Shown piece after piece: positions 5,472 through 63,911 of a DNA stretch of 64,000 bases. The position numbers were made by a program, and so were the translations under genes. Numbering within the stretch: position 1 is the first letter of the stretch; each line of letters opens with the position of its first letter. The notes beneath the pieces are model-generated. The model was given only the letters and a program-made list of their open reading frames with translations. It was not told where the DNA came from and did no database searches. The stretch is from Abditibacteriota bacterium (lineage in GTDB: Bacteria > Armatimonadota > UBA5829): positions 1 to 64,000 of the forward strand of contig JAFZNQ010000004.1 in NCBI GenBank assembly GCA_017552965.1. The letters are read 5' to 3'.

Positions 5472-6872
5472 TTGACCACAGTCCTTTTGCTTTTTCTGAC
5501 TCTTCTGGCAGTCCCGGCGGCCTGCAAATGCCTTACCTTTTACGCCGGGGACCACGCCGCCTGCGACAGCAGCGTCATCCACGGAGGCGGCACCGACGAC
5601 ACCGCGGCCCTGCAGGGCCTTCTGGACAAGGCCCGGGACGGGGTGACCTCCGTAAGGCTCATCATGGACGGGGCCTCCCTCATCACGGGGCTCACGGTGT
5701 ATTCCAACACCACCATAGAGTGCATCAATCCCTCCTGCGGCTTCTTTTTGGCGGACGGCAGCAACTGCCCTCTCCTGAAAAACGAATTCTTCGACAAGTG
5801 GTTTGACCACGAGCCCGCCAACCGGAATATCACCATATCCGGGGGCACCTGGAACCACAACGCCAGGGGGCAGGCGCACGACGTGCCCATCCCGCCCGAA
5901 AGGGAATACCCGCGGCAGGACCCCAGCGAGCCCACCCCCTGGTGGGTCATGGCCTTCATGTTCTGCGGGGTGGAAAACTTTGTCATGAAGGACGTCACCA
6001 TCCGCAACCAGCGCACCTTTGCCATGGCCATGAAGAACTGGCGTTTCGTGAACATAGACAACGTGAACATCATCCTGGACGAATACATGCCCGCCAACAA
6101 CCAGGACGGCCTCCACTTCCTGGGGCCGGGCCGGTTTCTCTCCCTGAAAAACATCACGGGCACCGCCGGGGACGACATCATAGCCCTGGGCCCCGACGAG
6201 ATAGAGGGCGAGTGCTCCATCAGCGACGTGATGATAGACGGCCTGCACATGAACCATTCGGACCAGGGCATCCGCATGCTGTGCGGCCGCAAGGGCACTC
6301 TGGACCGGGTGCTCATCAAAAACGTCACCGGCACCTACCGGGGCTACGGCTTCATCATGAACCCCTGGTTTGACAGCGAGTCCGGGGGCTGCTACAAAAA
6401 CATCATCATAGACACGGTGGACATACGGGCGGACGACCAATGCTACGACTACATGCCTCCCTTTATCTTCCGGCTGGGAGGGAACATGGAGCACATCACC
6501 TTCCGCAACGTCCACTATCACGGCAGCCTGCCCCAATACATAGCCGAGATAGGGGGCATGGGCTTCCGGCACGAGCCCCCCAACGCCCTGAACCGCACCC
6601 GCATACGGGATCTGGTGCTGGAGAACGTGTATATTTACGACGACCCGGCGGACCACAGCTATATCTGCTGCCAGGACAGGGTGGACGCCCTCACCCTGCG
6701 CAACTGGCGGGTGAACAACAAGGGCAGCCGGGGCTGCCTGCTGGAGCTCACGGACACGGCGTCGGTGGGCGAGCTGCGCATGGAAAGCATCATCACCCGG
6801 GGCCTGAAGACCCTGACGGACAGGCCCGACAGGATACAGAATATTCACAAAAGAGGAATCATCACCCTATGA
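5472..6872 (+). CDS. GH28-like right-handed beta-helix glycosidase, secreted paralog 1
   Basis: 466 residues starting at TTG (5472), preceded by GGAGG at 5459-5463. Residues 1-18 are a signal peptide. The N-terminal GGGTDDTAALQGLLDKA segment is the pectate-lyase-superfamily cap, and the rest is repetitive beta-helix. Polygalacturonase-like motifs can be placed: NNQDG at 209-213 (the N-x-D motif), GDD at 233-235, and DQGIR at 264-268. The GHG motif of classical GH28 and the Lys of its RIK motif are not found, so substrate or mechanism may differ from polygalacturonase. Followed by two paralogs and a GH2 enzyme, it likely attacks a pectin or rhamnogalacturonan side structure. The stop overlaps the next start (ATGA). 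Confidence 0.75.
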   Translation: MTTVLLLFLTLLAVPAACKCLTFYAGDHAACDSSVIHGGGTDDTAALQGLLDKARDGVTSVRLIMDGASLITGLTVYSNTTIECINPSCGFFLADGSNCPLLKNEFFDKWFDHEPANRNITISGGTWNHNARGQAHDVPIPPEREYPRQDPSEPTPWWVMAFMFCGVENFVMKDVTIRNQRTFAMAMKNWRFVNIDNVNIILDEYMPANNQDGLHFLGPGRFLSLKNITGTAGDDIIALGPDEIEGECSISDVMIDGLHMNHSDQGIRMLCGRKGTLDRVLIKNVTGTYRGYGFIMNPWFDSESGGCYKNIIIDTVDIRADDQCYDYMPPFIFRLGGNMEHITFRNVHYHGSLPQYIAEIGGMGFRHEPPNALNRTRIRDLVLENVYIYDDPADHSYICCQDRVDALTLRNWRVNNKGSRGCLLELTDTASVGELRMESIITRGLKTLTDRPDRIQNIHKRGIITL

Positions 6873-8227
6873 ACCACATCTATTACGCATCGGACTACGC
6901 GGCGCTGGACAGCCACGTGGAAAAGGGCGGCGGCACCGACGACACCGCGGCCCTGCAGGGCATTCTGGACAAGGCCCGGGACGGCAGGACCCCGGTCAAG
7001 CTCATCATGGACGGGGCCGCCCTCATCACGGGCCTGACCATCTGGTCCAATACCACCATTGAGTGCGTCAACCCCTCCTGCGGCTTCTTCCTGAAGGACG
7101 GCAGCGACCGGGCCCTTCTGAGGAACGGCAACGCCGACTTTTACTGCGCCCCGGAGGACCGGGACAGAAACATCACCATCTCCGGCGGCACCTGGAACCA
7201 CAACGCCCGGGGCCAGCGGCACGACGTGCCCTGCCCGGACGACGAGCAGCACATCTATCAGCTGCAGGACAAGGAATACATGCCCACCAAGTGGGTGCTG
7301 GCCTTCGAGCTCTACGGAGTGGAAAACGTGACCATGAAGGATATGACCATCAGGAACCAGCGGACCTTTACCCTGCTGATGGCCAACTTCAAATTCGTCA
7401 ACATTGACAACGTGAACATAGTCCTGGACGACTATATGAGCGCCAACAATCAGGACGGGCTCCACTTCTTCGGGCCGGGGCAGTTTCTCAACCTCCGCAA
7501 CATCACCGGCACCTCCGGGGACGACTTCATAGCCATCGCTCCCGACGAAAGGGACGGCAAGTCCTCCATCACCGACGTGATGATAGACGGGGTGCACCTG
7601 AACAACGCCGACCAGGGCATCCGGCTGCTGTGCCGGGGCGAGGGCGAGCTGGACCGGGTGCTCATCAAAAACGTGACGGGCACCTTCCGGGGCTACGGCT
7701 TCATCATCAACCCCTGGTTCCCGGGGAACGGGGGCCACTACAGGAACATAGTCATAGACACGGTGGACCTCCACTGCCGGGATCTGGCCTACGACTATAT
7801 GCGGGGCTTTGTGTTCAAGCTGGGGGGCAACATAGACAATCTGGTGCTGCGCAACGTTCACTATCACTCCGAGGTGCCCCTGTATCTCATAGACGCCGGC
7901 GGCCACTACATGAGGCCCCTGCCCTCCGACGGGGAAAACCCCACCCTCATAGACAATCTGGTGCTGGAGAACGTGTATATCTGCGGCGACAGGCAGAGCC
8001 ACGACTACATACGCGTCAGGGACAGGGTGAACAGCCTGGTCATATCCAACGTGCAGCTGCAGGACTGCCACAACCCGTCGGGCGCCCTGATCAGGACCGG
8101 GGAAAACGGCTCCCTGGGCAGCCTGTATATAGACGGCTTCACCGGCGAAGGGCTGGGAGAGCTGTATCCGGAGGAGACGGCGGAGCAGGCGGAGTATATC
8201 GCCGAAAACGATATACAGGTGAAATAG
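6869..8227 (+). CDS. GH28-like beta-helix glycosidase, paralog 2 (no signal peptide)
   Basis: 452 residues from the ATG at 6869, which overlaps the previous stop by four bases (ATGA). A longer upstream frame exists but lies inside the preceding gene. The protein starts directly in the cap region (MNHIYYASDYAALDSHVEKGGGTDDTAALQG is paralleled in paralogs 1 and 3; here quoted positions 1-31 are the evidence) and has NNQDG, SGDD and DQGIR in the same order as paralog 1, again without GHG. There is no signal peptide, so as annotated it stays in the cytoplasm, which is unusual for a polysaccharidase and may indicate action on imported oligosaccharides. Confidence 0.75.
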   Translation: MNHIYYASDYAALDSHVEKGGGTDDTAALQGILDKARDGRTPVKLIMDGAALITGLTIWSNTTIECVNPSCGFFLKDGSDRALLRNGNADFYCAPEDRDRNITISGGTWNHNARGQRHDVPCPDDEQHIYQLQDKEYMPTKWVLAFELYGVENVTMKDMTIRNQRTFTLLMANFKFVNIDNVNIVLDDYMSANNQDGLHFFGPGQFLNLRNITGTSGDDFIAIAPDERDGKSSITDVMIDGVHLNNADQGIRLLCRGEGELDRVLIKNVTGTFRGYGFIINPWFPGNGGHYRNIVIDTVDLHCRDLAYDYMRGFVFKLGGNIDNLVLRNVHYHSEVPLYLIDAGGHYMRPLPSDGENPTLIDNLVLENVYICGDRQSHDYIRVRDRVNSLVISNVQLQDCHNPSGALIRTGENGSLGSLYIDGFTGEGLGELYPEETAEQAEYIAENDIQVK

Positions 8228-8231
8228 CCCT

Positions 8232-9596
8232 ATGAAAAACATCTATTACGCATCGGACTACGCGGTCCTGGACAGCCACGTGGAAAAGGGCGGCGGCACC
8301 GACGACACCGCGGCTCTGCAGAGCATTCTGGACAAGGCCCGGGACGGCAGGACCCCGGTCCGGCTGGTCATGGACGGGGCCGCCCTCATCACGGGCCTGG
8401 TCATATGGCCCAACACCACCATAGAGTGCATCAATCCCTCCTGCGGCTTCTTTCTGGCGGACGGCAGCAACCGGGCCCTTCTGAGGAACGGCGACCCGGA
8501 CTTTTACGGCGAGAGGCGGGACAAAAACATCACCATCAGCGGGGGCACCTGGAACCACAACGCCCGGGGGCAGGAGCACCACATAGAGCTGCCCGGGGAC
8601 CCCTATGAGGAGCACCTGAAGCGGAATCATTTCAGCTATCTGGTGACGGAGTGCAAGCACATATTCGCCTTTGAGTTCTACGGCGTGGAAAACGTGACCA
8701 TGCGGGATATGACCGTCATGAACCAGCGGACCTACGTGATGCTCATGGCCAACTTCCGGTTCGTCACCATCGAAAACGTGAACGTGGTCCTGCGGGACTA
8801 CATGAGCGCCAACAATCAGGACGGCTTTCATTTCTGGGGCCCGGGACAGTTTCTCACCCTGCGCAACCTGACGGGCACTGCCGGGGACGACTTCATAGCC
8901 CTGGCCCCCGACGAGGCCGACGGCAAGTCCTCCATCACCGACGTGATGATAGACGGGGTGCACCTGAACGACTCGGACCAGGGCATCCGGCTGCTGAGCC
9001 GGGGCGAGGGAGTATTGGACCGGGTGCTCATCAAAAACGTGACGGGCACCTACCGGGGCCTGGGCTTCATCATCAACCCCTGGTTCCCCGGCCCGGGAGG
9101 CCGTGTCAGGAACGTGGTCTTTGACACGGTGGAACTGCGGTGCATAGAGCCGGCCTACGACTACATAGACCCGTTTCTGTTCAAGCTGGGAGGCAATATA
9201 GAAAATCTGACCCTGCGGCACATACACTTTCACGCGGACGTGCCCGCCTGGCTCATTGACGCCGGGGGCCACTACATGAGGCGGATGCCCTCCGATGAGG
9301 AAAACCCCACCCTCATAGACAACCTGTCCCTGGAGAACGTGTATATCCACGGGGACCCCTTCACCCACGACTACGTCAGGATCAGGGACCGGGTCAACAC
9401 CCTGACGGTGCGCAACGCGCTGATCACAGGCGGAGCGGACCGCAAGGGCGCCTTTATCACCGGCGCCGAAAAGGGCTCCGTGGGCAGCCTGATCATAGAC
9501 GGCTTCACGGCGGAAGGCATGGAGACCCTGTGCTCCGACGACCTGGCCGAAGGAGCGGACGAAGTGACCGAGAGCCGGGTCAACGTCAGGAGCTGA
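8232..9596 (+). CDS. GH28-like beta-helix glycosidase, paralog 3 (no signal peptide)
   Basis: 454 residues, closest to paralog 2. It has the cap motif GGGTDDTAALQ, then NNQDG, AGDD and DQGIR, and lacks GHG. It starts four bases after the stop of paralog 2 and, like it, has no signal peptide. Long identical DNA stretches between paralogs 2 and 3 near their starts point to a fairly recent tandem duplication. The likely role is hydrolysis of a galacturonate- or rhamnose-containing oligosaccharide, inferred from the fold and the operon only. Confidence 0.75.
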   Translation: MKNIYYASDYAVLDSHVEKGGGTDDTAALQSILDKARDGRTPVRLVMDGAALITGLVIWPNTTIECINPSCGFFLADGSNRALLRNGDPDFYGERRDKNITISGGTWNHNARGQEHHIELPGDPYEEHLKRNHFSYLVTECKHIFAFEFYGVENVTMRDMTVMNQRTYVMLMANFRFVTIENVNVVLRDYMSANNQDGFHFWGPGQFLTLRNLTGTAGDDFIALAPDEADGKSSITDVMIDGVHLNDSDQGIRLLSRGEGVLDRVLIKNVTGTYRGLGFIINPWFPGPGGRVRNVVFDTVELRCIEPAYDYIDPFLFKLGGNIENLTLRHIHFHADVPAWLIDAGGHYMRRMPSDEENPTLIDNLSLENVYIHGDPFTHDYVRIRDRVNTLTVRNALITGGADRKGAFITGAEKGSVGSLIIDGFTAEGMETLCSDDLAEGADEVTESRVNVRS

Positions 9597-15091: not shown

Positions 15092-15096
15092 GTCAC

Positions 15097-15230
15097 CGTC
15101 ATCCCGGCGGAAATGGCAACATATCAAACGCATCAGCGTTTGGCCATTTCCGGGAAGGGACCTCGGGCGGGACCCATTTGCCCTTACATTGCTCTGTCGC
15201 AGACAGAGAGGGCAAATGGGGAGGACCCGG
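15097..15230 (+). repeat. Structured intergenic repeat, family 1, copy A
   Basis: A 134-bp element starting CGTCATCCCGG and ending GAGGACCCGG, nearly identical in its first half to 63373-63505. It folds as two nested stem-loops: CGGAAATGGC/GCCATTTCCG enclosing CAAACGC/GCGTTTG, and CCATTTGCCC/GGGCAAATGG enclosing CTCTGTC/GACAGAG. The enclosed hairpins vary between copies by compensatory changes. No coding gene fits here. Confidence 0.85.
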
Positions 15231-15277
15231 CAAAAGCAGTGACGTGAAGCACGATCATCCCGGCGCGCTCTCTCCGC

Positions 15278-15352
15278 CGTCATCCCGCGCCATTGGCTCT
15301 GCCAAGGACGCTCAGAGATCCACGGGGGCACCGACAGCATTTATGCCGTTGG
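15278..15352 (+). repeat. Structured intergenic repeat, family 2, copy A
   Basis: Starts CGTCATCCCGCGCC and is about 85-90% identical over roughly 60 bp to the reverse complement of 43334-43400. The two copies diverge after GGGGGCACCGAC, where each has a different hairpin. Confidence 0.75.
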
Positions 15353-15442
15353 GGGGTCCGTACAAGGCGGAGAACCGCGAGCGATAGTCACGGACCAAGC
15401 GGGGTGACCCGGGGCATGGGCGGAAAATATTTCCGGGCCTGC

Positions 15443-32630: not shown

Positions 32631-33932
32631 CTATAGTTTTTCCGTCCTGTTGCCTGCGATCACCTTGTTGGCGCCGGAGGACATATCCAGCAGGGGCCGG
32701 GCCTTGCCGGGCTGCTGCAGCAGGTTGTCCTGCAGGTATATATAGTCCGCCCCCTCGTCTATGATCACCGCCGGCACCTCGCCGGTCCCCATCAGCAGGC
32801 AGTCCTTCACCCACACCCTTTGGGCCTTGCTGCCCAGGCGTATCGCCGGGCTTGCGCTCTGGATGACGCAGTCGGATATGGTGAGCTTGTTGGTATAAAA
32901 GGGCTTCCAGTATATGCCGGAATAATCGTGGTCTATGCCGGTGTAGGCGCCGTCGCCGAAGCCCCGGATCTGGGTGTCCTTGATGACTCCGTTGAAGCCT
33001 ATGGCCTCGGGGAGGACCCGGATGCCCACGCCTCCCTTGTTGACCAGCACGTTGCAGCCCAGCACCGTGAAGCCCAGGACTCCCCGGAAGTCGAAGCCGC
33101 AGTCCACCGCCTCTATCCAGCAGTTGGTAAAGGCGTAGCCCAGGCTGATCACGCTCTCATTGGCGTCCGGCCGGGCCGTGAGGGTCTGGCGGAAAAAGCA
33201 CTTGGCCCCTATCACAAAGCAGGCGTTGAAGGTGGCTCCGTCCTGACGGCCGAAATCAAAGGCTATGAGATGGTGGGCGGCGTAGGCCTTCTCCGTGAAG
33301 GGGCCTATGCGGGAGGGGAAAAAGTGCACGTTCTCAAACCTGTTCACGTCCAGCCCGCCGCTGAGGCGGAAGCCCCGCCAGTGGCAGAAGGCCTTGATGT
33401 TGGCAAAATAGCACTGCCCCGCGTTGGCTCCCCCCGGATAGGGAGTGGACACTCCGATCCAGGCGCCGTCTATGTCTATGTATTCCAGGCTCACGTTGCA
33501 GCCGGCTATCTCAAAGGCCGCATCGTACAGATCGGGCTTTTCCATCTTCTCCGGGGTCAGGTTGTCCGGATAATACACCGCCGCCCCCTTCACCGCCGAA
33601 TAGGAGTTCATGCGGAAGGCGGGGCCGTCCCTGTGCCTGACGTGAAAGGTGGAGGTGGTGTTTTCCCAGCTGTCGCCCTGTCCCAGGAGCACGGTCCGCT
33701 GAGGGATGGTCACGGTCTTTTCCAGCGCCATGACTCCCGCAGGCAGACGCACCACCCCTCCGCCTGAGGGCAGGCTGTCAATGGCCCTTTGCAGGGCTGC
33801 CGCGCAGGGAGCGGCGCCGTCGGCCGTGACGCCGAAGTCAGCCGCCATGACCTCTCCCGACGGCGAGACCGCCGAAGCGCAGAGAGAGCCGGCGCAGAGT
33901 ACCAGGAGCAGCGCGGAGAGCAGTCTGGTCAT
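32631..33932 (-). CDS. Pectate-lyase-superfamily (Pectate_lyase_3-like) secreted beta-helix protein, paralog 1
   Basis: 433 residues from the ATG at 33932, which overlaps the upstream stop (ATGA) and begins a signal peptide (MTRLLSALLLVLCAGSLCASA). MAADFGVTADGAAPCAAALQ and GGGVVRLPAGVMAL are the cap and first strands of the Pectate_lyase_3 domain; the remainder is beta-helix with many aromatic and Cys-bearing turns (for example NRFENVHFFPSR, AFDFGRQDGATFN). No confirmed catalytic triad can be assigned. About half of the residues match the two upstream paralogs. Likely cell-surface polysaccharide binding or cleavage. Confidence 0.75.
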   Translation of the reverse strand: MTRLLSALLLVLCAGSLCASAVSPSGEVMAADFGVTADGAAPCAAALQRAIDSLPSGGGVVRLPAGVMALEKTVTIPQRTVLLGQGDSWENTTSTFHVRHRDGPAFRMNSYSAVKGAAVYYPDNLTPEKMEKPDLYDAAFEIAGCNVSLEYIDIDGAWIGVSTPYPGGANAGQCYFANIKAFCHWRGFRLSGGLDVNRFENVHFFPSRIGPFTEKAYAAHHLIAFDFGRQDGATFNACFVIGAKCFFRQTLTARPDANESVISLGYAFTNCWIEAVDCGFDFRGVLGFTVLGCNVLVNKGGVGIRVLPEAIGFNGVIKDTQIRGFGDGAYTGIDHDYSGIYWKPFYTNKLTISDCVIQSASPAIRLGSKAQRVWVKDCLLMGTGEVPAVIIDEGADYIYLQDNLLQQPGKARPLLDMSSGANKVIAGNRTEKL

Positions 33933-35254
33933 TTGGCAGCCTCCTTTTGTCGCAGGTCTTCGGTCAGGTTGTCCCGCAGGACCACGTCCCTGCCGGAGGG
34001 CCGGGGGCCTCCCCAAAGGGACATGCCGTCGTTTTCCAGCTGAAATATATTGTCGCTCACGGTGCAGCCCGCGGCCTCCGGGTCTATATCCATGGCGGGA
34101 CTGCCGGACAGCAGACACCCCTGCACCCACGCCCGGCAGCAGTTTTTGCCCAGCCGGACGGCGGGGGCCGCCCTCTGGATGATGCAGTCGGACACAGTCA
34201 GCTTGTTCAGGGCGTTGGGAGCCCACCACTTGTATTCCATATCGTATTCCACGCCGGTAAAGGTCTTGCCGGGGTAGCCCCGGATCTGGGTGGAGTTGAC
34301 CACTGCGTTGTAGGCGATGCATTCGGCGCGGACCCTCACGCCCACGCCTTTGTCCTTGACCAGTATGTTGGAGCCGGCTATGGTAAAGCCGCACACGCCG
34401 GCGAAGTCAAAGCCGCAGTCCACGTTTTCTATCCAGCAGTTCATGAAACTGTAGCCCAGGGACTGGCTCCACTTGCCGTCGATGCCGTTGTCCCGGTCCT
34501 GCCTGAAAAAGCCCTTGCCCCTGATGATGAAGCAGGAGTTCATCATGCAGCCGTCCTGCCTGCCGAACTCAAAGCCTATCAGGTTGTCCATGGAAAAGCT
34601 GCCGCCCTTGGCGGTCTGGCTGGGGAAAAAGTGGATGTTCTCAAACCGGTTGATGTCCGCCGCCCCCGTGAGATAAAAGCCCCGATAGTGGCAAAAGGCG
34701 TTGATGTTGGCAAAATAGCACTGTCCCGCATTGGCCCCCCCCTGAGGCGTGGAGCAGAATATCCAGGCCCCGTCCACCGAGATGTATTCCAGGGTATTGT
34801 TGCAGCCTATGAGGACCACGCAGGGGGGATACTCGTCGGGCTGCGCCATCTTTTCGTCGGTGAGATTGTCCGGATACCGCATGCACACGCCCTTTATGGC
34901 GCAGTGGGTCAGCAGGGAAAAGGCGGGGCCCTCCCTGTGCCTGATCACAAAGGTGGTGTGGGTGTTTTCCCAGCCGGCGCCGGCCCCCTCCAGAGTCACC
35001 CTGTCGGGCACCGTGACAGGCTTGTCCATCAGGATGAGGCCCGCAGGCAGCCGCACCACGCCCCCCTGGGTATTTTCGGTGTTCAGAGAGTCCATGGCCC
35101 TCTGCAGGGCCGCGGCGGAAGGGGTCCTGCCGTCGGCCGTGACGCCGAAGTCCGCCGCATTGACCTCTGCGGCAGGCTTGAAGGCCTTTTGCTCGCCGGC
35201 CCACAGGGCCGCCGGCAGGGCCAGCAGCAAGAGTATCACACACAGCTTTTTCAT
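33929..35254 (-). CDS. Pectate-lyase-superfamily secreted beta-helix protein, paralog 2
   Basis: 441 residues with a signal peptide (MKKLCVILLLLALPAALWAG). The domain starts VNAADFGVTADGRTPSAAAL and GGVVRLPAGLILMD. Shared blocks with paralogs 1 and 3 include GGANAGQCYFANI, INRFENIHFFPS, FEFGRQDG and NKLTVSDCIIQ. Four-base overlaps on both sides (ATGA) show translational coupling. Function not known beyond the fold. Confidence 0.75.
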   Translation of the reverse strand: MKKLCVILLLLALPAALWAGEQKAFKPAAEVNAADFGVTADGRTPSAAALQRAMDSLNTENTQGGVVRLPAGLILMDKPVTVPDRVTLEGAGAGWENTHTTFVIRHREGPAFSLLTHCAIKGVCMRYPDNLTDEKMAQPDEYPPCVVLIGCNNTLEYISVDGAWIFCSTPQGGANAGQCYFANINAFCHYRGFYLTGAADINRFENIHFFPSQTAKGGSFSMDNLIGFEFGRQDGCMMNSCFIIRGKGFFRQDRDNGIDGKWSQSLGYSFMNCWIENVDCGFDFAGVCGFTIAGSNILVKDKGVGVRVRAECIAYNAVVNSTQIRGYPGKTFTGVEYDMEYKWWAPNALNKLTVSDCIIQRAAPAVRLGKNCCRAWVQGCLLSGSPAMDIDPEAAGCTVSDNIFQLENDGMSLWGGPRPSGRDVVLRDNLTEDLRQKEAAK

Positions 35255-36618
35255 TGGGCGTCACCCGCCTTGGGCTTTTGCTTCGACAGATCCTCAAAGA
35301 CGTTGTTCTCTGTCACAGTCCCCTTCAGGCCGGGAGGGCACTCAATAGGCCCCGGCCGGGAGGCATCCTCGACCTGGAAAATGTTGTCCTTCACATATAC
35401 GTATTCCGCGCCCCTGTCTATCTGGAGGGCGGGGCTTTTGTCCGTCCCGGACAGCAGGCAGCCCTTTATCCACGCCCTGCGGGCATTGCCGCGGATGCGT
35501 ATGGCCGGCGAGGCGCCCTGTATCTGGCAGTCGGAGACGGTGAGCTTGTTCATGCCGTTGTGGGACCAATATTTCAGCCGCAGGTCATAATCTATGCCGC
35601 AAAATTCATTGTCGCCGCCGAAGCCCCTTATCTGGGTGCCGGTCACGGCTCCGTTGTAGGCTATGGTCTCGGCCGCTATCCTTATGCCGACGCCGCCCTT
35701 GTTGACCAGCACGTTGCAGTTCACTATGTTGAAGCCGCACACGCCTTCTATGTCAAAGCCCGTGTCCACCGCCTCTATCCAGCAGCCGAAAAAGCCGTAG
35801 CCCAGAGAGGCGTTGTAGGGCAGCTCCGCTATACCTCCGCTGGAGCCCGGACCGGGAGAGTCCGTCCCCTGGCGGAAAAAGCCCTTGCCCATGATGATGA
35901 AGCAGTCGGTGAACATGGCTCCGTCCTGCCTGCCGAACTCAAAGCCTATGAGGTTGTGGGCAAAGTAGGCGTCGCCCTCCGTGTATTGGTTGGACCGGGA
36001 GGGAAACAGGTGCACGTTCTCGAACCGGTTGATGTCCGCCGCCCCGCTGAGCCAAAAGCCCCGGTGGTGGCAAAAGCCGTTGATGTTGGAAAAGAGGGAC
36101 TGGCCGTTGTTGGCCCCCGTGCCCGCGCTGGACACTCCGATCCAGGCGCCGTCCAGATTGACGTATTCCAGGCTCACGTTGCTGCCGCGGAGCTCAAAGG
36201 CCGGGTCGTAGCGGTCGGGCCGGCGCATCTTCTCGTCGGACAGGTTGTCCGGGTATTCCACCGACACCCCCTTCACGCCGCAGTAGGACCCCAGGGAAAA
36301 GGCGGGGCCCTCCCTGTGCCTGACGTAAAAGGTGGTGTGGGTGTTTTCCCAGCTGTCGCCCGCTCCGAACAGATACACGTTCTCCTTCACGGTCACGGTC
36401 CTGTCCAGCAGGATGATGCCTGCAGGCAGGCGCACCCTGCCCCCGGCTGCGCCGGGCAGGCTGTCTATGGCCTTTTGCAGAGCCTCGGCCGAGGGGGTCC
36501 TGCCGTCTGCAGCCACGCCGAAGGCGGCGGCGTCCACCGACTGCGAGGGCTCCACCGGGTTGGCGAAGGCGGCCGCAGCCGCCAGGATCAGCGCTATTGC
36601 CGCAGCAAACAGCTTCAT
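35251..36618 (-). CDS. Pectate-lyase-superfamily secreted beta-helix protein, paralog 3
   Basis: 455 residues from the ATG at 36618 (TAATG overlap with the HIT gene), beginning with a signal peptide (MKLFAAAIALILAAAAAFA). VDAAAFGVAADGRTPSAEAL starts the domain; NNGQSLFSNINGFCHHRGFW, INRFENVHLFPSR and FEFGRQDGAMF align with the other two copies. The region around residues 255-275 contains an extra Gly/Pro/Ser-rich loop. Role as for its paralogs. Confidence 0.75.
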   Translation of the reverse strand: MKLFAAAIALILAAAAAFANPVEPSQSVDAAAFGVAADGRTPSAEALQKAIDSLPGAAGGRVRLPAGIILLDRTVTVKENVYLFGAGDSWENTHTTFYVRHREGPAFSLGSYCGVKGVSVEYPDNLSDEKMRRPDRYDPAFELRGSNVSLEYVNLDGAWIGVSSAGTGANNGQSLFSNINGFCHHRGFWLSGAADINRFENVHLFPSRSNQYTEGDAYFAHNLIGFEFGRQDGAMFTDCFIIMGKGFFRQGTDSPGPGSSGGIAELPYNASLGYGFFGCWIEAVDTGFDIEGVCGFNIVNCNVLVNKGGVGIRIAAETIAYNGAVTGTQIRGFGGDNEFCGIDYDLRLKYWSHNGMNKLTVSDCQIQGASPAIRIRGNARRAWIKGCLLSGTDKSPALQIDRGAEYVYVKDNIFQVEDASRPGPIECPPGLKGTVTENNVFEDLSKQKPKAGDAQ

Positions 36619-43333: not shown

Positions 43334-43400
43334 CCTTCGGCCGTCGGTGCCCCCGTAGATCTCCGAGCGTCCCTGGCAGAGCCAATGGCGCGAGATGACG
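43334..43400 (-). repeat. Structured intergenic repeat, family 2, copy B (inverted)
   Basis: Reverse complement starts CGTCATCTCGCGCC and matches 15278-15340, differing at scattered positions. ATCTC near the start and GAGAT downstream could form the bounding stem. After GGGGGCACCGAC this copy has GGCC/GGCC around a GAA loop where copy A has a different hairpin. The rest of 43274-43552 is non-coding GC-rich sequence with small inverted repeats (for example CCTGCCGGCAGG). Confidence 0.75.
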
Positions 43401-43482
43401 CGGGGGATTATTGCGACCGCGAGGATGACGACCGGTGTTTCCCTGCCGGCAGGCGCGCAGCCCTGCCGGCGCGCAGCATCAA

Positions 43483-53191: not shown

Positions 53192-53230
53192 CGTCATCTC
53201 GGCGCCTCTACAAGAGGCGGTAAGAGATCC
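53192..53230 (-). repeat. Structured intergenic repeat, family 3, copy A
   Basis: In plus-strand reading it goes CGTCATCTCGGCG, hairpin CGCCTCT-ACA-AGAGGCG, then GTAAGAGATCC. The same flanks surround a completely different hairpin at 60927-60997 (inverted). ATCTC and GAGAT can pair as the bounding stem. The rest of 53074-53318 is non-coding, with a stretch (53260-53310) resembling 60765-60815. Confidence 0.75.
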
Positions 53231-53318
53231 CCTCCAGTGGAACCGCGAGCTCGGGCGCGCACAAGCCCAACGGGACACATGGAAAACGTTCTCCCGCACT
53301 TCTCGTCAGTACTATAGC

Positions 53319-53461
53319 CTGGGTCCTCCCATTTGCCCCTCCGGAATTACACCCAGGTCCCTTCCCGGAAATCGCGTAATGCTGGCGCATTACACATGTT
53401 GCCATTATACCCCACGAATACTTTTATTCGCGGAGACCCCTAAATTTCCGCCGGGATGACG
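53319..53461 (-). repeat. Structured intergenic repeat, family 1, copy C (inverted, rearranged)
   Basis: The reverse complement begins CGTCATCCCGGCGGAAAT like copies A and B, then has a 37-base insertion with its own hairpin (CCGCGAATA/TATTCGTGG), then TGGCAACAT, the hairpin GTAATGC-GCCA-GCATTAC in place of CAAACGC/GCGTTTG, and TTTCCGGGAAGGGACCT. The second stem-loop of the family is mostly deleted, leaving GGGCAAATGGGAGGACCC. Confidence 0.78.
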
Positions 53462-53475
53462 AGAAGTGTTTCTCC

Positions 53476-60672: not shown

Positions 60673-60926
60673 ACGGAGGGCCATTGCTTCTTTATTGCTC
60701 CCGGGCAAAAGAGAAAGGCGCTCTGCTGAACAATACACCGACCACCGCGAGCCTCGGTCACGGACCGGCCCAACGGAACTGCGGAAAACGCTCGACCGCA
60801 CTTCTCCTCAAGCCCCGCGATACGGCCCCTCCCACCAGCCCACTCCGGCCTTGCCGGAGTAAGGAAAGGGCTGGCGGGCCCCGTCCGCAAACCACCCCAA
60901 AAAATCTGCGATTTTTCGGGGACCCC

Positions 60927-60997
60927 GGGATCTCTTACCGCGGCCGGCAGGACGCCAAGGCGTCTGACATATAGCCGGCCGCGCCGAGATGACGCGG
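60927..60997 (+). repeat. Structured intergenic repeat, family 3, copy B
   Basis: GGGATCTCTTACCG, then the nested hairpin GCGGCCGGC/GCCGGCCGC with inner GACGCC/GGCGTC, then GCCGAGATGACG. The flanks equal those of 53192-53230 in the other orientation while the hairpin is unrelated. The preceding 60673-60926 is non-coding and contains other small inverted repeats (for example CTCCGGC/GCCGGAG at 60842-60859). Confidence 0.75.
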
Positions 60998-61048
60998 GGG
61001 AGCCGCAATGCTCTTCATGACAGAACCGCGAGCTGTGGTCACGGACCA

Positions 61049-61326
61049 AGCCGGGGTGGGAGGGGCAGAGCCCCTGCTCAAGCCGAAGGGCAAGCGTCGC
61101 CGTCAGGCGCAAGGCGGAAAAGGCAGAAATGCAGCTTCTTTTCTGCCCCGCCGCTGAGCGCAGACCTGAGGCGCAGACGGGTCCAGGGCAGCAGGCCCTG
61201 GTCGTGAGGGGGGTCCGGGGCGCTTCGAAAAGCCCCGGGCGGGTGTGGGTACGCCGTACCCACGAAAAAAAGGGGGGGTATGCGAAGGGGGGAAGCCCCC
61301 CTTGCCCGGACGAGCCGAGGAACGGA
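61049..61326 (+). repeat. Left arm of a 278-bp inverted repeat flanking the SLH porin
   Basis: This arm matches the reverse complement of 63579-63855 over its whole length with a modest number of substitutions and small indels. Both arms include AGCCGAAGGGCAAGCGTCGC, ATGCAGCTTCTTTTCTGCCC and CTTCGAAAAGCCCCGGGCGG in the same order. No transposase is present. Short ORFs in it (beginning MQLLFCPAAERRPEAQ) are present in both arms but have no gene features. Confidence 0.88.
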
Positions 61327-61360
61327 AAGAGGTGTTGAAAGCAGTTTCAGCTACGGAACG

Positions 61361-61386
61361 GAAAGAAAAAGCCCCTTGCGGGGCTT
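61361..61386 (-). terminator. Intrinsic terminator after the SLH porin
   Basis: Minus strand AAGCCCC-GCAA-GGGGCTT hairpin followed by TTTTTCTTTC, 20 bases past the stop at 61407. Confidence 0.88.
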
Positions 61387-61406: not shown

Positions 61407-63116
61407 TTAGAAGTTGACGGACAGCTGTCCGGCCACCAGGTGGCTCTTCTGCCCGAGCAAATCATACTTCATGTACTGATACATCATCCTGACCTTGGCG
61501 CTTTGGCCCACCTTGCGGTTCCAGCCCACGGTGACGGCGTTGTCCCTGAAGGCGTACCTGGCCTGCTCGTATTCGGCGAACACGTTGTCCAGATCGGTCA
61601 GGTCATAGCTCACGCCGGCCTTCAGGTATTTCATGTCGTCATACATGGTCGGGTAAGCGCTGTCGTCCTCCTTGTACTGCTTGTAGGCGCCGTACACCCT
61701 GAAGGCATCGGAGAAGCTGTAAGCAGCGTCGGCATAGAAGCCCTTGTAGTTGTGCTCAACCCAGTAGCACAAGATCCTGTCTATGATGGATAAACCCGCC
61801 CAGCCGGCCTCCACGGTCTTGTAGCCGGCAGAGAGTTCCAGCTTGTCGTTCCGGAAGCCCAGCCCGGCGTCCCAGCAGACGGATGAACGGAAGCTCTTGT
61901 TGGGCTTCTCTTTGAACCAGCCGCCGTCCGCGTAAAACTGTCCGAAGGGCACGTACAGAGTGCCGCCGTAGTACTTGATCTTGTCCGCCTGGAAGGGGAT
62001 CTTGTTCTCGGCGCCCAGCATGTCGAACACCGCGGTCAGGCGGGCGTCGCCGAAGTTGAAGCCGGCCTGGACGCCGCCGTTGCCGCTGATCTTTTGATAA
62101 CCCGTCGGCGACGACGGATCGAAAAAAGCCATCATCTGCCAGTCATGCCAGTCGTACACGGGACGGTTGCCCCATACCCTCAGATCAAAGGCGCCGAAGG
62201 ACTTGCTGTAGTCAAAGCCTTCGAAGACAAAGTTGCCGTCGTCCATCCTGTCGATATCAAAGAAACTGGAATCCTTGTGTCTCTTGAACAGGAAACGGTT
62301 TACCTGGAAGGGCATGCGGCCTACTCTCACGTTGCCCCAGGTCTCGTCGGAAGACTCGGCATACATGTAGTATGGGGTGACGTCGGCCATAGTGTCCTGG
62401 TAATCCTCGGCGCCGCTGAGCTTGTCCAGATAGTCGCCTATGACCAGAGTGGTGTACACGTTCACGTGATCGTTCACTCTGCCCTTGATATCGATCTGCA
62501 CGTCCTTCATGAAGGACTGCTTTCTCTTGAATAACTTGTTGAAATTCGAAAAGCCGTCACTGTCGGCGGCGGCCGCGTCTCCCGAGATCACGGATTCTAC
62601 CATGAAGTTGGCGGAGCCGGTGATCTTGATGCGGGCCTGCTCCTCTTCCAGAGCGGCCACCCGGCTCTTCAGAGCGGCCACGTCGGCCTTAAGAACGTTC
62701 ACGTCCACGCCCAGAGCAGCCAGCTCGGGCTGGAATTCGTCCACGAGAGCTTTGATCTTGCCCAGGGCGTCGGCGGTGGCCAGGCCGGACAGGTCCGCGT
62801 CTTCGCCGGGCACGTAGTCGCCCTTCAGCATATACTTGTCCAGGTCGGACTTTTTGGCAAAGCCGCTGACGTCAAGGCCTTCCTCGCCCAGATAGGGCAG
62901 CAGGCGGGTCAGCACCAGGGCAAATTCGTAGCGGGTCATGGTCCTCTTGCCCTTGAATTCACCGTCGGGATAGCCCACGATGAGTCCGGCGGCCTCCAGC
63001 TCGCTGACAGCATCGTAGGCCCAGTGGTCGCGGGGCACGTCCGAGAAGGTGGTCTGCGCCAGCATAGGGGCGGCCAGAGCAAACGCTATGGCCAATACCA
63101 TAAATAACTTTTTCAT
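61407..63116 (-). CDS. SLH-domain outer-membrane porin
   Basis: 569 residues from the ATG at 63116, preceded by AGAGGATAAAC; the frame is open further upstream but the signal peptide (MKKLFMVLAIAFALAAPMLA) fixes this start. Residues 24-70 are one SLH domain (FSDVPRDHWAYDAVSELEAA, MTRYEFALVLTRLL), expected to bind peptidoglycan-linked polymer. Residues about 117-163 form a coiled coil (VNVLKADVAALKSRVAALEE). The rest is a predicted beta-barrel ending VAGQLSVNF with terminal Phe. This layout matches SLH porins of Negativicutes, Cyanobacteria and Deinococcus-like envelopes. Perfect promoter and terminator imply high expression. Flanked by the long inverted repeats. Confidence 0.92.
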   Translation of the reverse strand: MKKLFMVLAIAFALAAPMLAQTTFSDVPRDHWAYDAVSELEAAGLIVGYPDGEFKGKRTMTRYEFALVLTRLLPYLGEEGLDVSGFAKKSDLDKYMLKGDYVPGEDADLSGLATADALGKIKALVDEFQPELAALGVDVNVLKADVAALKSRVAALEEEQARIKITGSANFMVESVISGDAAAADSDGFSNFNKLFKRKQSFMKDVQIDIKGRVNDHVNVYTTLVIGDYLDKLSGAEDYQDTMADVTPYYMYAESSDETWGNVRVGRMPFQVNRFLFKRHKDSSFFDIDRMDDGNFVFEGFDYSKSFGAFDLRVWGNRPVYDWHDWQMMAFFDPSSPTGYQKISGNGGVQAGFNFGDARLTAVFDMLGAENKIPFQADKIKYYGGTLYVPFGQFYADGGWFKEKPNKSFRSSVCWDAGLGFRNDKLELSAGYKTVEAGWAGLSIIDRILCYWVEHNYKGFYADAAYSFSDAFRVYGAYKQYKEDDSAYPTMYDDMKYLKAGVSYDLTDLDNVFAEYEQARYAFRDNAVTVGWNRKVGQSAKVRMMYQYMKYDLLGQKSHLVAGQLSVNF

Positions 63117-63292
63117 GTTTATCCTCTTGAGATTTTGCGTATCCCGGGGCTGGCAGTATCCTTGTTCCCTGCAAGCCGCCTTGATACAGTCGTAATTTGG
63201 ATCGTCGATTTGACCTTCGGGCACTCACAGCATACTCAAAAACGTGTCACCTCCTCCGGGGCTGCGCCGCATTGACGGTCAAACTCACCTAC
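63117..63292 (-). promoter_or_regulatory. Long 5' leader of the SLH porin mRNA
   Basis: The predicted transcription start near 63286 leaves a leader of about 170 bases. It contains GGAGGAGGTGACACG (63245-63259) and other GC-rich parts, but I recognise no known riboswitch class. It is in frame with the porin for its last 108 bases, without a likely start. Confidence 0.4.
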
Positions 63293-63321: not shown

Positions 63322-63372
63322 TCAATAGAGAAAAGTATTTTTCATCTGCCGGAGGGCGTTCCGCCACTCCGC

Positions 63373-63505
63373 CGTCATCCCGGCGGAAATGGCAACAGAT
63401 CAAACGCGCAGCGTTTGGCCATTTCCGGGAAGGGACCTCGGGCGGGACCCGTTTGCCCGTTCCTTGCTCCGGCAAAGCCGGAGAGGGCAAATGGGGAGGA
63501 CCCGG
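63373..63505 (+). repeat. Structured intergenic repeat, family 1, copy B
   Basis: 133 bp, same order as copy A at 15097-15230. Hairpin loops differ: CAAACGC-GCA-GCGTTTG, and CTCCGGC-AAA-GCCGGAG instead of CTCTGTC-GCA-GACAGAG, keeping the pairing. Confidence 0.85.
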
Positions 63506-63578
63506 CTGAAGCAGAGACGGGAAAGACCTGCCAACCCAAAGACCTTTCCGACACTGATACTGCTTTCCTGACCTCGTA

Positions 63579-63855
63579 CCGTTCCACGGCTCGTTCAGGC
63601 AAGGGGGGCTTCCCCCCTTCGCATACCCCCCCTTTTTTCGTGGGTATTGCATACCCACACCCGCCCGGGGCTTTTCGAAGCGCCCCGGACCCCCCTCACG
63701 AGCAGGGCGGGCTGCCCTGCACCCGTCTGCGCCTCAGGTCTGCGCTCTGCGGCGGGGCAGAAAAGAAGCTGCATTTCTGCCTTTTCCGCCTTGCGCCTGA
63801 CGGCGACGCTTGCCCTTCGGCTTGAGCAGGGGCTTCGCCCCTCCCACCCCGGCTT
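63579..63855 (-). repeat. Right arm of the 278-bp inverted repeat flanking the SLH porin
   Basis: Inverted copy of 61049-61326. The 2.25 kb between the arms (61327-63578) contains the porin, its promoter and terminator and the structured repeat at 63373-63505. Confidence 0.88.
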
Positions 63856-63911
63856 GATCCTTGGCCGGCGCTCGCGGTCCTTTCGGGAGCAAGGGAGCCC
63901 GCCGGCCGGGC

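Follow-up and report, generated by a model that had tools for sequence, protein, structure and literature searches.

The 64-kb window studied here (the whole stretch of DNA that was analysed) carries copies of a three-armed repeat of ~155 nt, which we read, with a probability of about 0.55, as a REP/REPIN-like mobile DNA repeat, dispersed and non-autonomous, that has expanded into a three-way junction and whose tag-bearing strand, once folded, is read by its shape. The source genome (G000) is a draft MAG of a rumen bacterium (2.78 Mb, 138 contigs, 97% complete), and two genomes of the same genus, G001 and G002 (yak-rumen Abditibacteriota), served for comparison. An initial DNA search of the source genome gave ~43 strong copies, of which 27 were aligned to one structure of 46 pairs to give a covariance model (CM R1). 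At E ≤ 0.01, the model matched at least 113 places in the source genome, a lower bound that includes partial copies and comes from scoring the best 144 candidates, and at least 43 places in G002. No match to the model was found in G001 or in 25 other genomes of the class, leaving G000 and G002 as the only positives among 28 genomes scanned. The 12-mer CGTCATCYCGGC occurs 266 times in the source genome, 26 times in G002, not at all in G001 and one to six times in the other genomes tested; its reversed control occurs 0 times in the source genome. Many of the copies sit at the ends of contigs, where repeats that break an assembly are expected. Rfam gave no match to the repeat, either at the gathering threshold or at a loose E-value, and the exact 24-nt core was absent from genome and viral collections. 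A looser, gapped pattern appeared only in yak-rumen Abditibacteriota, apart from scattered single matches in other taxa, whose best covariance-model score was 21 bits and which were taken as chance, as were two single viral matches.

Two whole elements lie in the window on the forward strand, copy 1 at 15092-15246 (173.6 bits with CM R1) and copy 2 at 63368-63521 (169.4 bits). On the reverse strand are copy 3 (53302-53466, 40 bits), with an arm A of the GTAATGC type, a degenerate arm B and a 12-bp outer stem, and copy 4 (60804-60999, 62.2 bits), with a G+C-rich arm A of the CGCGGCCGGC type. The three copies described in the earlier note are real, and this fourth one had been missed. In copy 1 (forward strand throughout), the 5' end is formed by a CGTC tag followed by AT-CCC, which opens arm A (15097-15105). 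Arm A (15102-15160) consists of a basal stem TCCC/GGGA, an outer stem CGGAAATGGC/GCCATTTCCG (15108-15117/15143-15152), a 5' bulge AACATAT (15118-15124) and an inner hairpin CAAACGC/GCGTTTG, and arm B (15164-15229) of a stem CGGG/CCCG, a stem CCATTTGCC/GGCAAATGG, a 5' bulge CTTACATTG (15183-15191) and an inner hairpin CTCTGTC/GACAGAG. The outer stem P1 closes the element by pairing CGTCA (15097-15101) with TGACG (15240-15244). Folded as RNA, copy 1 reaches -72.3 kcal/mol (z = -5.6 against dinucleotide shuffles), and copies 2 and 3 have z-scores of -4.6 and -4.8. All stems proposed earlier from three copies, including CGGAAATGGC/GCCATTTCCG, CCATTTGCCC/GGGCAAATGG and both inner hairpins, were found where they had been placed, and compensatory pair changes indeed number three in one hairpin and two in the other. 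Copy 3 is a less clean third example than had been assumed: its stems are present, but it is without the second inner hairpin and carries a separate ~40-nt hairpin inside its first arm. Likewise, what had been described as shared flanks are the common ends of the element, that is, the outer pairing stem, and not common neighbouring genes.

Across the family, the fold consists of an outer stem and a pair of arms, both of which bulge on their 5' side only. Arm A comprises a basal stem TCYC/GRGA, a 10-bp stem (P2a), a bulge of 6-7 nt (AACATAT, ATATGT) and a 7-bp inner hairpin (P2b), and arm B a 4-bp stem (P3), an internal loop, a 9-bp stem (P4a), a bulge of 8-10 nt (NNTTCCTTR) and a 7-bp inner hairpin (P4b). 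In the 27-copy alignment, 95.0% of the cells paired, against 85.8% in shuffles, and 106 cells were doubly changed, against 30, with double changes in 19 pairs. Sliding the partners by one to three columns reduced pairing to below 46%. Of five measures of covariation, four were higher than in any of 500 column shuffles or any slid structure, and the fifth (further pair types) did not rise above shuffles. The stems in G002 are different; 93% of cells pair there and 32 of 46 pairs show double changes, in an alignment that was fitted to the model and so leans towards its structure. We also performed a tree-based, R-scape-like test of all column pairs in 80 full-length copies, with 40 null alignments simulated along the inferred tree as the reference. 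Thirteen column pairs had E < 0.05, and 12 of these 13 were predicted base pairs, distributed over P2a, P2b, P3, P4a and P4b; the E-values are approximate because exchange between copies violates the tree. Such exchange alone would not pick out complementary positions. The genome-wide search with a covariance model proposed in the earlier note recovered a large family, and a lack of covariation was not seen. P1 aligns poorly in the model, its register differing between copies, and was tested apart: the longest complement within a copy's own ends averaged 5.93 bp, compared with 5.09 (sd 0.13) for swapped partners, and the P1 types CCCCGCG, CACTTCTCGTC, CTCACGGC, CCCACGGC and TCCGCCG all recur with their own complements.

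The arms behave as modules. Within arm A, the outer stem comes linked to its inner stem, CCCAAATCGC invariably with GTAATGC and CCAAAACGGC with CAAACGC, whereas arm A and arm B types are widely mixed, with 61 different combinations among 80 copies. Part of what looks like compensation in a copy is thus the swap of a ready-made arm, although paired changes were still needed for the different arms to arise. As stems also swap in this way, several paired changes may have been one event, and the original inference from three copies was weak; once 80 full-length copies are considered, the covariation holds as numerous separate changes across five helices. A small hairpin of ~37-40 nt, GGGGTCCCC-stem-GGGGTG(T/G), which has exchangeable stems of its own, is nested at varying positions in many copies (loci L003-L124, for example L028:540-1120). 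In the window it interrupts arm A of copy 3 (TTAGGGGTCTCCGCGAATAAAAGTATTCGTGGGGTATAAT, 53404-53443, reverse strand), the uninterrupted copies representing the empty site, and a further example (GGGGTCCCCGAAAAATC-GCA-GATTTTTTGGGGTGG) lies inside copy 4 (60892-60926, reverse strand).

Mobility is suggested by empty sites, by nested insertions and by the polar placing of tag stubs. At the site of copy 4, the genes on either side are collinear in G002, where ~76 nt and no repeat stand in place of ~735 nt; this is a two-sided empty site or a loss. The other three sites in the window each have one flank that is orthologous in G002 with no element beside it (one-sided empty sites). Furthermore, a bare tag stub, CGTCATCYCG, stands 21-37 nt upstream in the same orientation in 18 of the 52 copies with full flanks, compared with one in the opposite orientation. 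These stubs consist of CGTCATCCCGGCG plus a few bases (for example at loci L085, L089, L093, L095, L104 and L109), and the polar arrangement looks as if copies arrive directly 3' of a tag already in place. No target-site duplication could be established; joining the flanks of copies in repetitive surroundings yielded mostly copy-to-copy or self matches and no clean empty site.

Searches for mobilising machinery agreed with the earlier view that neither a transposase nor a known RNA family fits. A Y1 HUH transposase (RAYT, PF01797) was absent from the source genome and was detected in 5 of 14 controls, reverse transcriptase (PF00078) was absent from all three genomes of the genus, and DDE_Tnp_1 was not found; positive controls for the latter two worked. 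A match to IS110 was rejected as a BadF/BcrA-type ATPase. Each of the three genomes, and thus also the element-free one, has a single rve gene. In the source genome, this integrase-core gene lies at the start of contig C114 (L170, G000:C114:14-289), and three copies of the repeat follow within 1.1 kb. As the source genome is a draft, a mobilising gene could be missing from the data.

Among known repeats, the closest in build are the CGTC-tagged REPs, a superfamily with a CGTC tag, a stem starting with A and T and no dedicated transposase (Di Nocera et al. 2013, PMC3733652), which includes dRS3 of Neisseria and RPE-4/RPE-6 of Rickettsia and is named there in Proteobacteria, Chlorobi, Bacteroidetes, Spirochaetes and Thermotogae, with Armatimonadota not mentioned. 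Like these, most copies of the present repeat have a 5' CGTC tag followed by a stem starting with AT; the family is high-copy, extragenic and palindromic, varies in stems, loops and tails, and has no associated transposase that we could find. Whereas CGTC REPs are single hairpins in units of 20-40 bp, with a stem of 8-9 bp and a loop of 4-5 nt, here ~155 nt form three helical domains, the left arm being a long bulged hairpin to which a second arm and an outer stem are added. The tag of CGTC REPs is unpaired; here, most copies have the tag, and in a part of them CGTC(A) forms the outer stem together with the 3' end. Most copies have the stem start CAT...AT(C), at least 53 of 80 copies having T as the first base of the junction, and an A.C stands in the GGGACC type. 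REPINs, which consist of a pair of GTAG-tagged REPs in inverted orientation and are moved by RAYT, show compensatory changes in their spacers (PMC3116915), and E. coli TnpA-REP requires an unpaired bulge in the REP stem (PMC8266576). The present family resembles REPINs in being a folded intragenomic repeat population with compensatory hairpin changes, the spread of REPINs having been attributed to a single-stranded intermediate, and differs in its CGTC tag, with no GTAG, and in the absence of a Y1 transposase (PF01797). As far as the tables of its description go, bcr1 of the Bacillus cereus group (147-167 bp; PMC2267715) is likewise dispersed, intergenic, of similar size, conserved in fold and taxonomically limited; by those tables, the present element is set apart by two exchangeable bulged arms and many more copies. 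We therefore file the element as an elaborate REP-like palindromic repeat that works like a REPIN and is a member of neither CGTC REPs nor REPINs.

In the mechanism that we propose, the 5'-CGTCAT strand, when single-stranded, would fold into the outer stem and two bulged arms, and a putative enzyme or process that copies or inserts the element would recognise the element's tag, one-sided bulges and shape, whatever the letters of its stems. Because only shape would be read, stems could drift in compensating pairs and whole arms could be exchanged by recombination. The mobilising enzyme may be the host's own or borrowed. Integron attC sites are likewise recognised as folded single-stranded DNA and combine variable stem sequence with one-sided unpaired bases, as does the element here; attC sites occur in arrays of cassettes alongside an integron integrase, and no such setting was seen here. 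More speculatively, the recognition unit might itself be a single-stranded three-way junction with interchangeable arms, the family a combinatorial set of shapes, and the enzyme of a type that has so far not been connected with palindromic repeats.

The earlier note had held that the folded form is selected or required for spread. The covariation supports the view that the fold is what is kept, be it as RNA, as single-stranded DNA or partly as a by-product of hairpin-templated repair. If the repeat were a structured non-coding RNA or a 3'-end structure that stabilises mRNA, with selection acting on transcripts of one orientation and multiplication being secondary, this would account for compensatory changes in five helices, conserved unpaired bulges and a conserved G.U on the tag strand, and copies 1 and 3 do closely follow genes and terminator-like hairpins that point the same way. 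We nevertheless consider such an RNA unlikely. Each bulge is confined to the 5' side (78 of 80 copies have 0 nt opposite that of arm A), and 50 of 80 copies retain, across several different stem sequences, a G.T pair at the third place of P4a; both features mark the CGTCAT strand as the one probably read. Outside this pair, G.U cells (32) are matched by A.C cells (31), unlike a helix selected as RNA, which would usually show an excess of wobbles. Orientation to neighbouring genes is mixed (same/same 10, same/opposite 9, opposite/opposite 5), on rough gene calls that included a shadow frame across copy 1, and counts of copies inside genes were not used. The lack of any element in G001, of conserved copy sites in G002 and of an Rfam match also speaks against RNA. 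On these observations we favour folded single-stranded DNA, and the constraint looks like one on such DNA more than on RNA. Both DNA strands fold almost equally well, which counts against the preferred reading.

Pairing could also be passive, if a nascent strand switched template within a hairpin, so correcting the quasi-palindrome, and gene conversion spread the result with no selection on the fold. Multi-copy hairpins favour both processes, and few half-way states, near-equal numbers of G.U and A.C and stems that differ by whole blocks all fit; template switching is a serious rival for the stems. However, it tends towards perfect palindromes, and would not readily keep the one-sided bulges and the G.T that persist across stem sequences; nor does it easily explain spread or link the halves of P1, which covary ~140 nt apart. 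As an account of the family we regard it as quite improbable. Very unlikely, too, is an ordinary MITE of a DDE transposon with the outer stem as terminal inverted repeats: an outer stem of 5-12 bp, intergenic location and nested copies would suit it, but the stem sequence is not fixed and its varied types come with their complements, no DDE_Tnp_1 was found, the sole rve gene is common to the element-free genome and no duplication was seen. When a MITE, a REPIN-like element and a structured RNA were originally suggested, the REPIN-like or MITE idea was a good lead, the left arm being built like a CGTC-tagged REP, but a DDE MITE, whose terminal repeats should be fixed, is not supported.

On the preferred reading of a mobile repeat read by shape, the family bears on CGTC palindromes at large, which span several phyla and which no enzyme is known to move. 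Here, one genus combines an exploded, elaborate CGTC version with a close element-free relative, and because this relative exists, a comparison of the three genomes limits where the enzyme has to be sought. The family also serves as a compensatory-mutation experiment run by nature, in which tag, bulges, one G.T and topology are kept and the letters of the stems are free. Should a single-stranded three-way junction and a new kind of enzyme prove true, this would also answer what moves CGTC REPs.

Other repeats occur in the same DNA. A shorter, related three-armed element (GTCATCCCGCGCCATTGGCTC...; 15273-15371, forward strand) scored 21.1 bits with CM R1 and was supported by a module scan; a related inverted copy lies near 43340-43407 (68-nt inverted pair I3, 88%). 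At 53192-53300 (forward strand, limits drawn by eye), the same kind of left arm is joined to another right half (...CCCCTCCAGTGGAACCGCGAGC...AACGGGACA). This third repeat type, also seen at loci L092, L108 and L007, has the same CGTCATCTCGGC arm, a right half CCCCTGTA.TGGAACCGCGAGCC...ACGGACC and an outer stem TGTCCCGTT/AACGGGACA. A long inverted repeat (61019-61361 / 63543-63884; 259 nt at 93% plus 96 nt at 86%) flanks a gene for an SLH-domain protein (61407-63224, reverse strand); related sequence is found at other places in G002, where the SLH gene is multi-copy on two contigs. Finally, two tandem triplicate blocks with ~1.35 kb per unit lie in coding sequence at 5522-9404 and 32715-36559.
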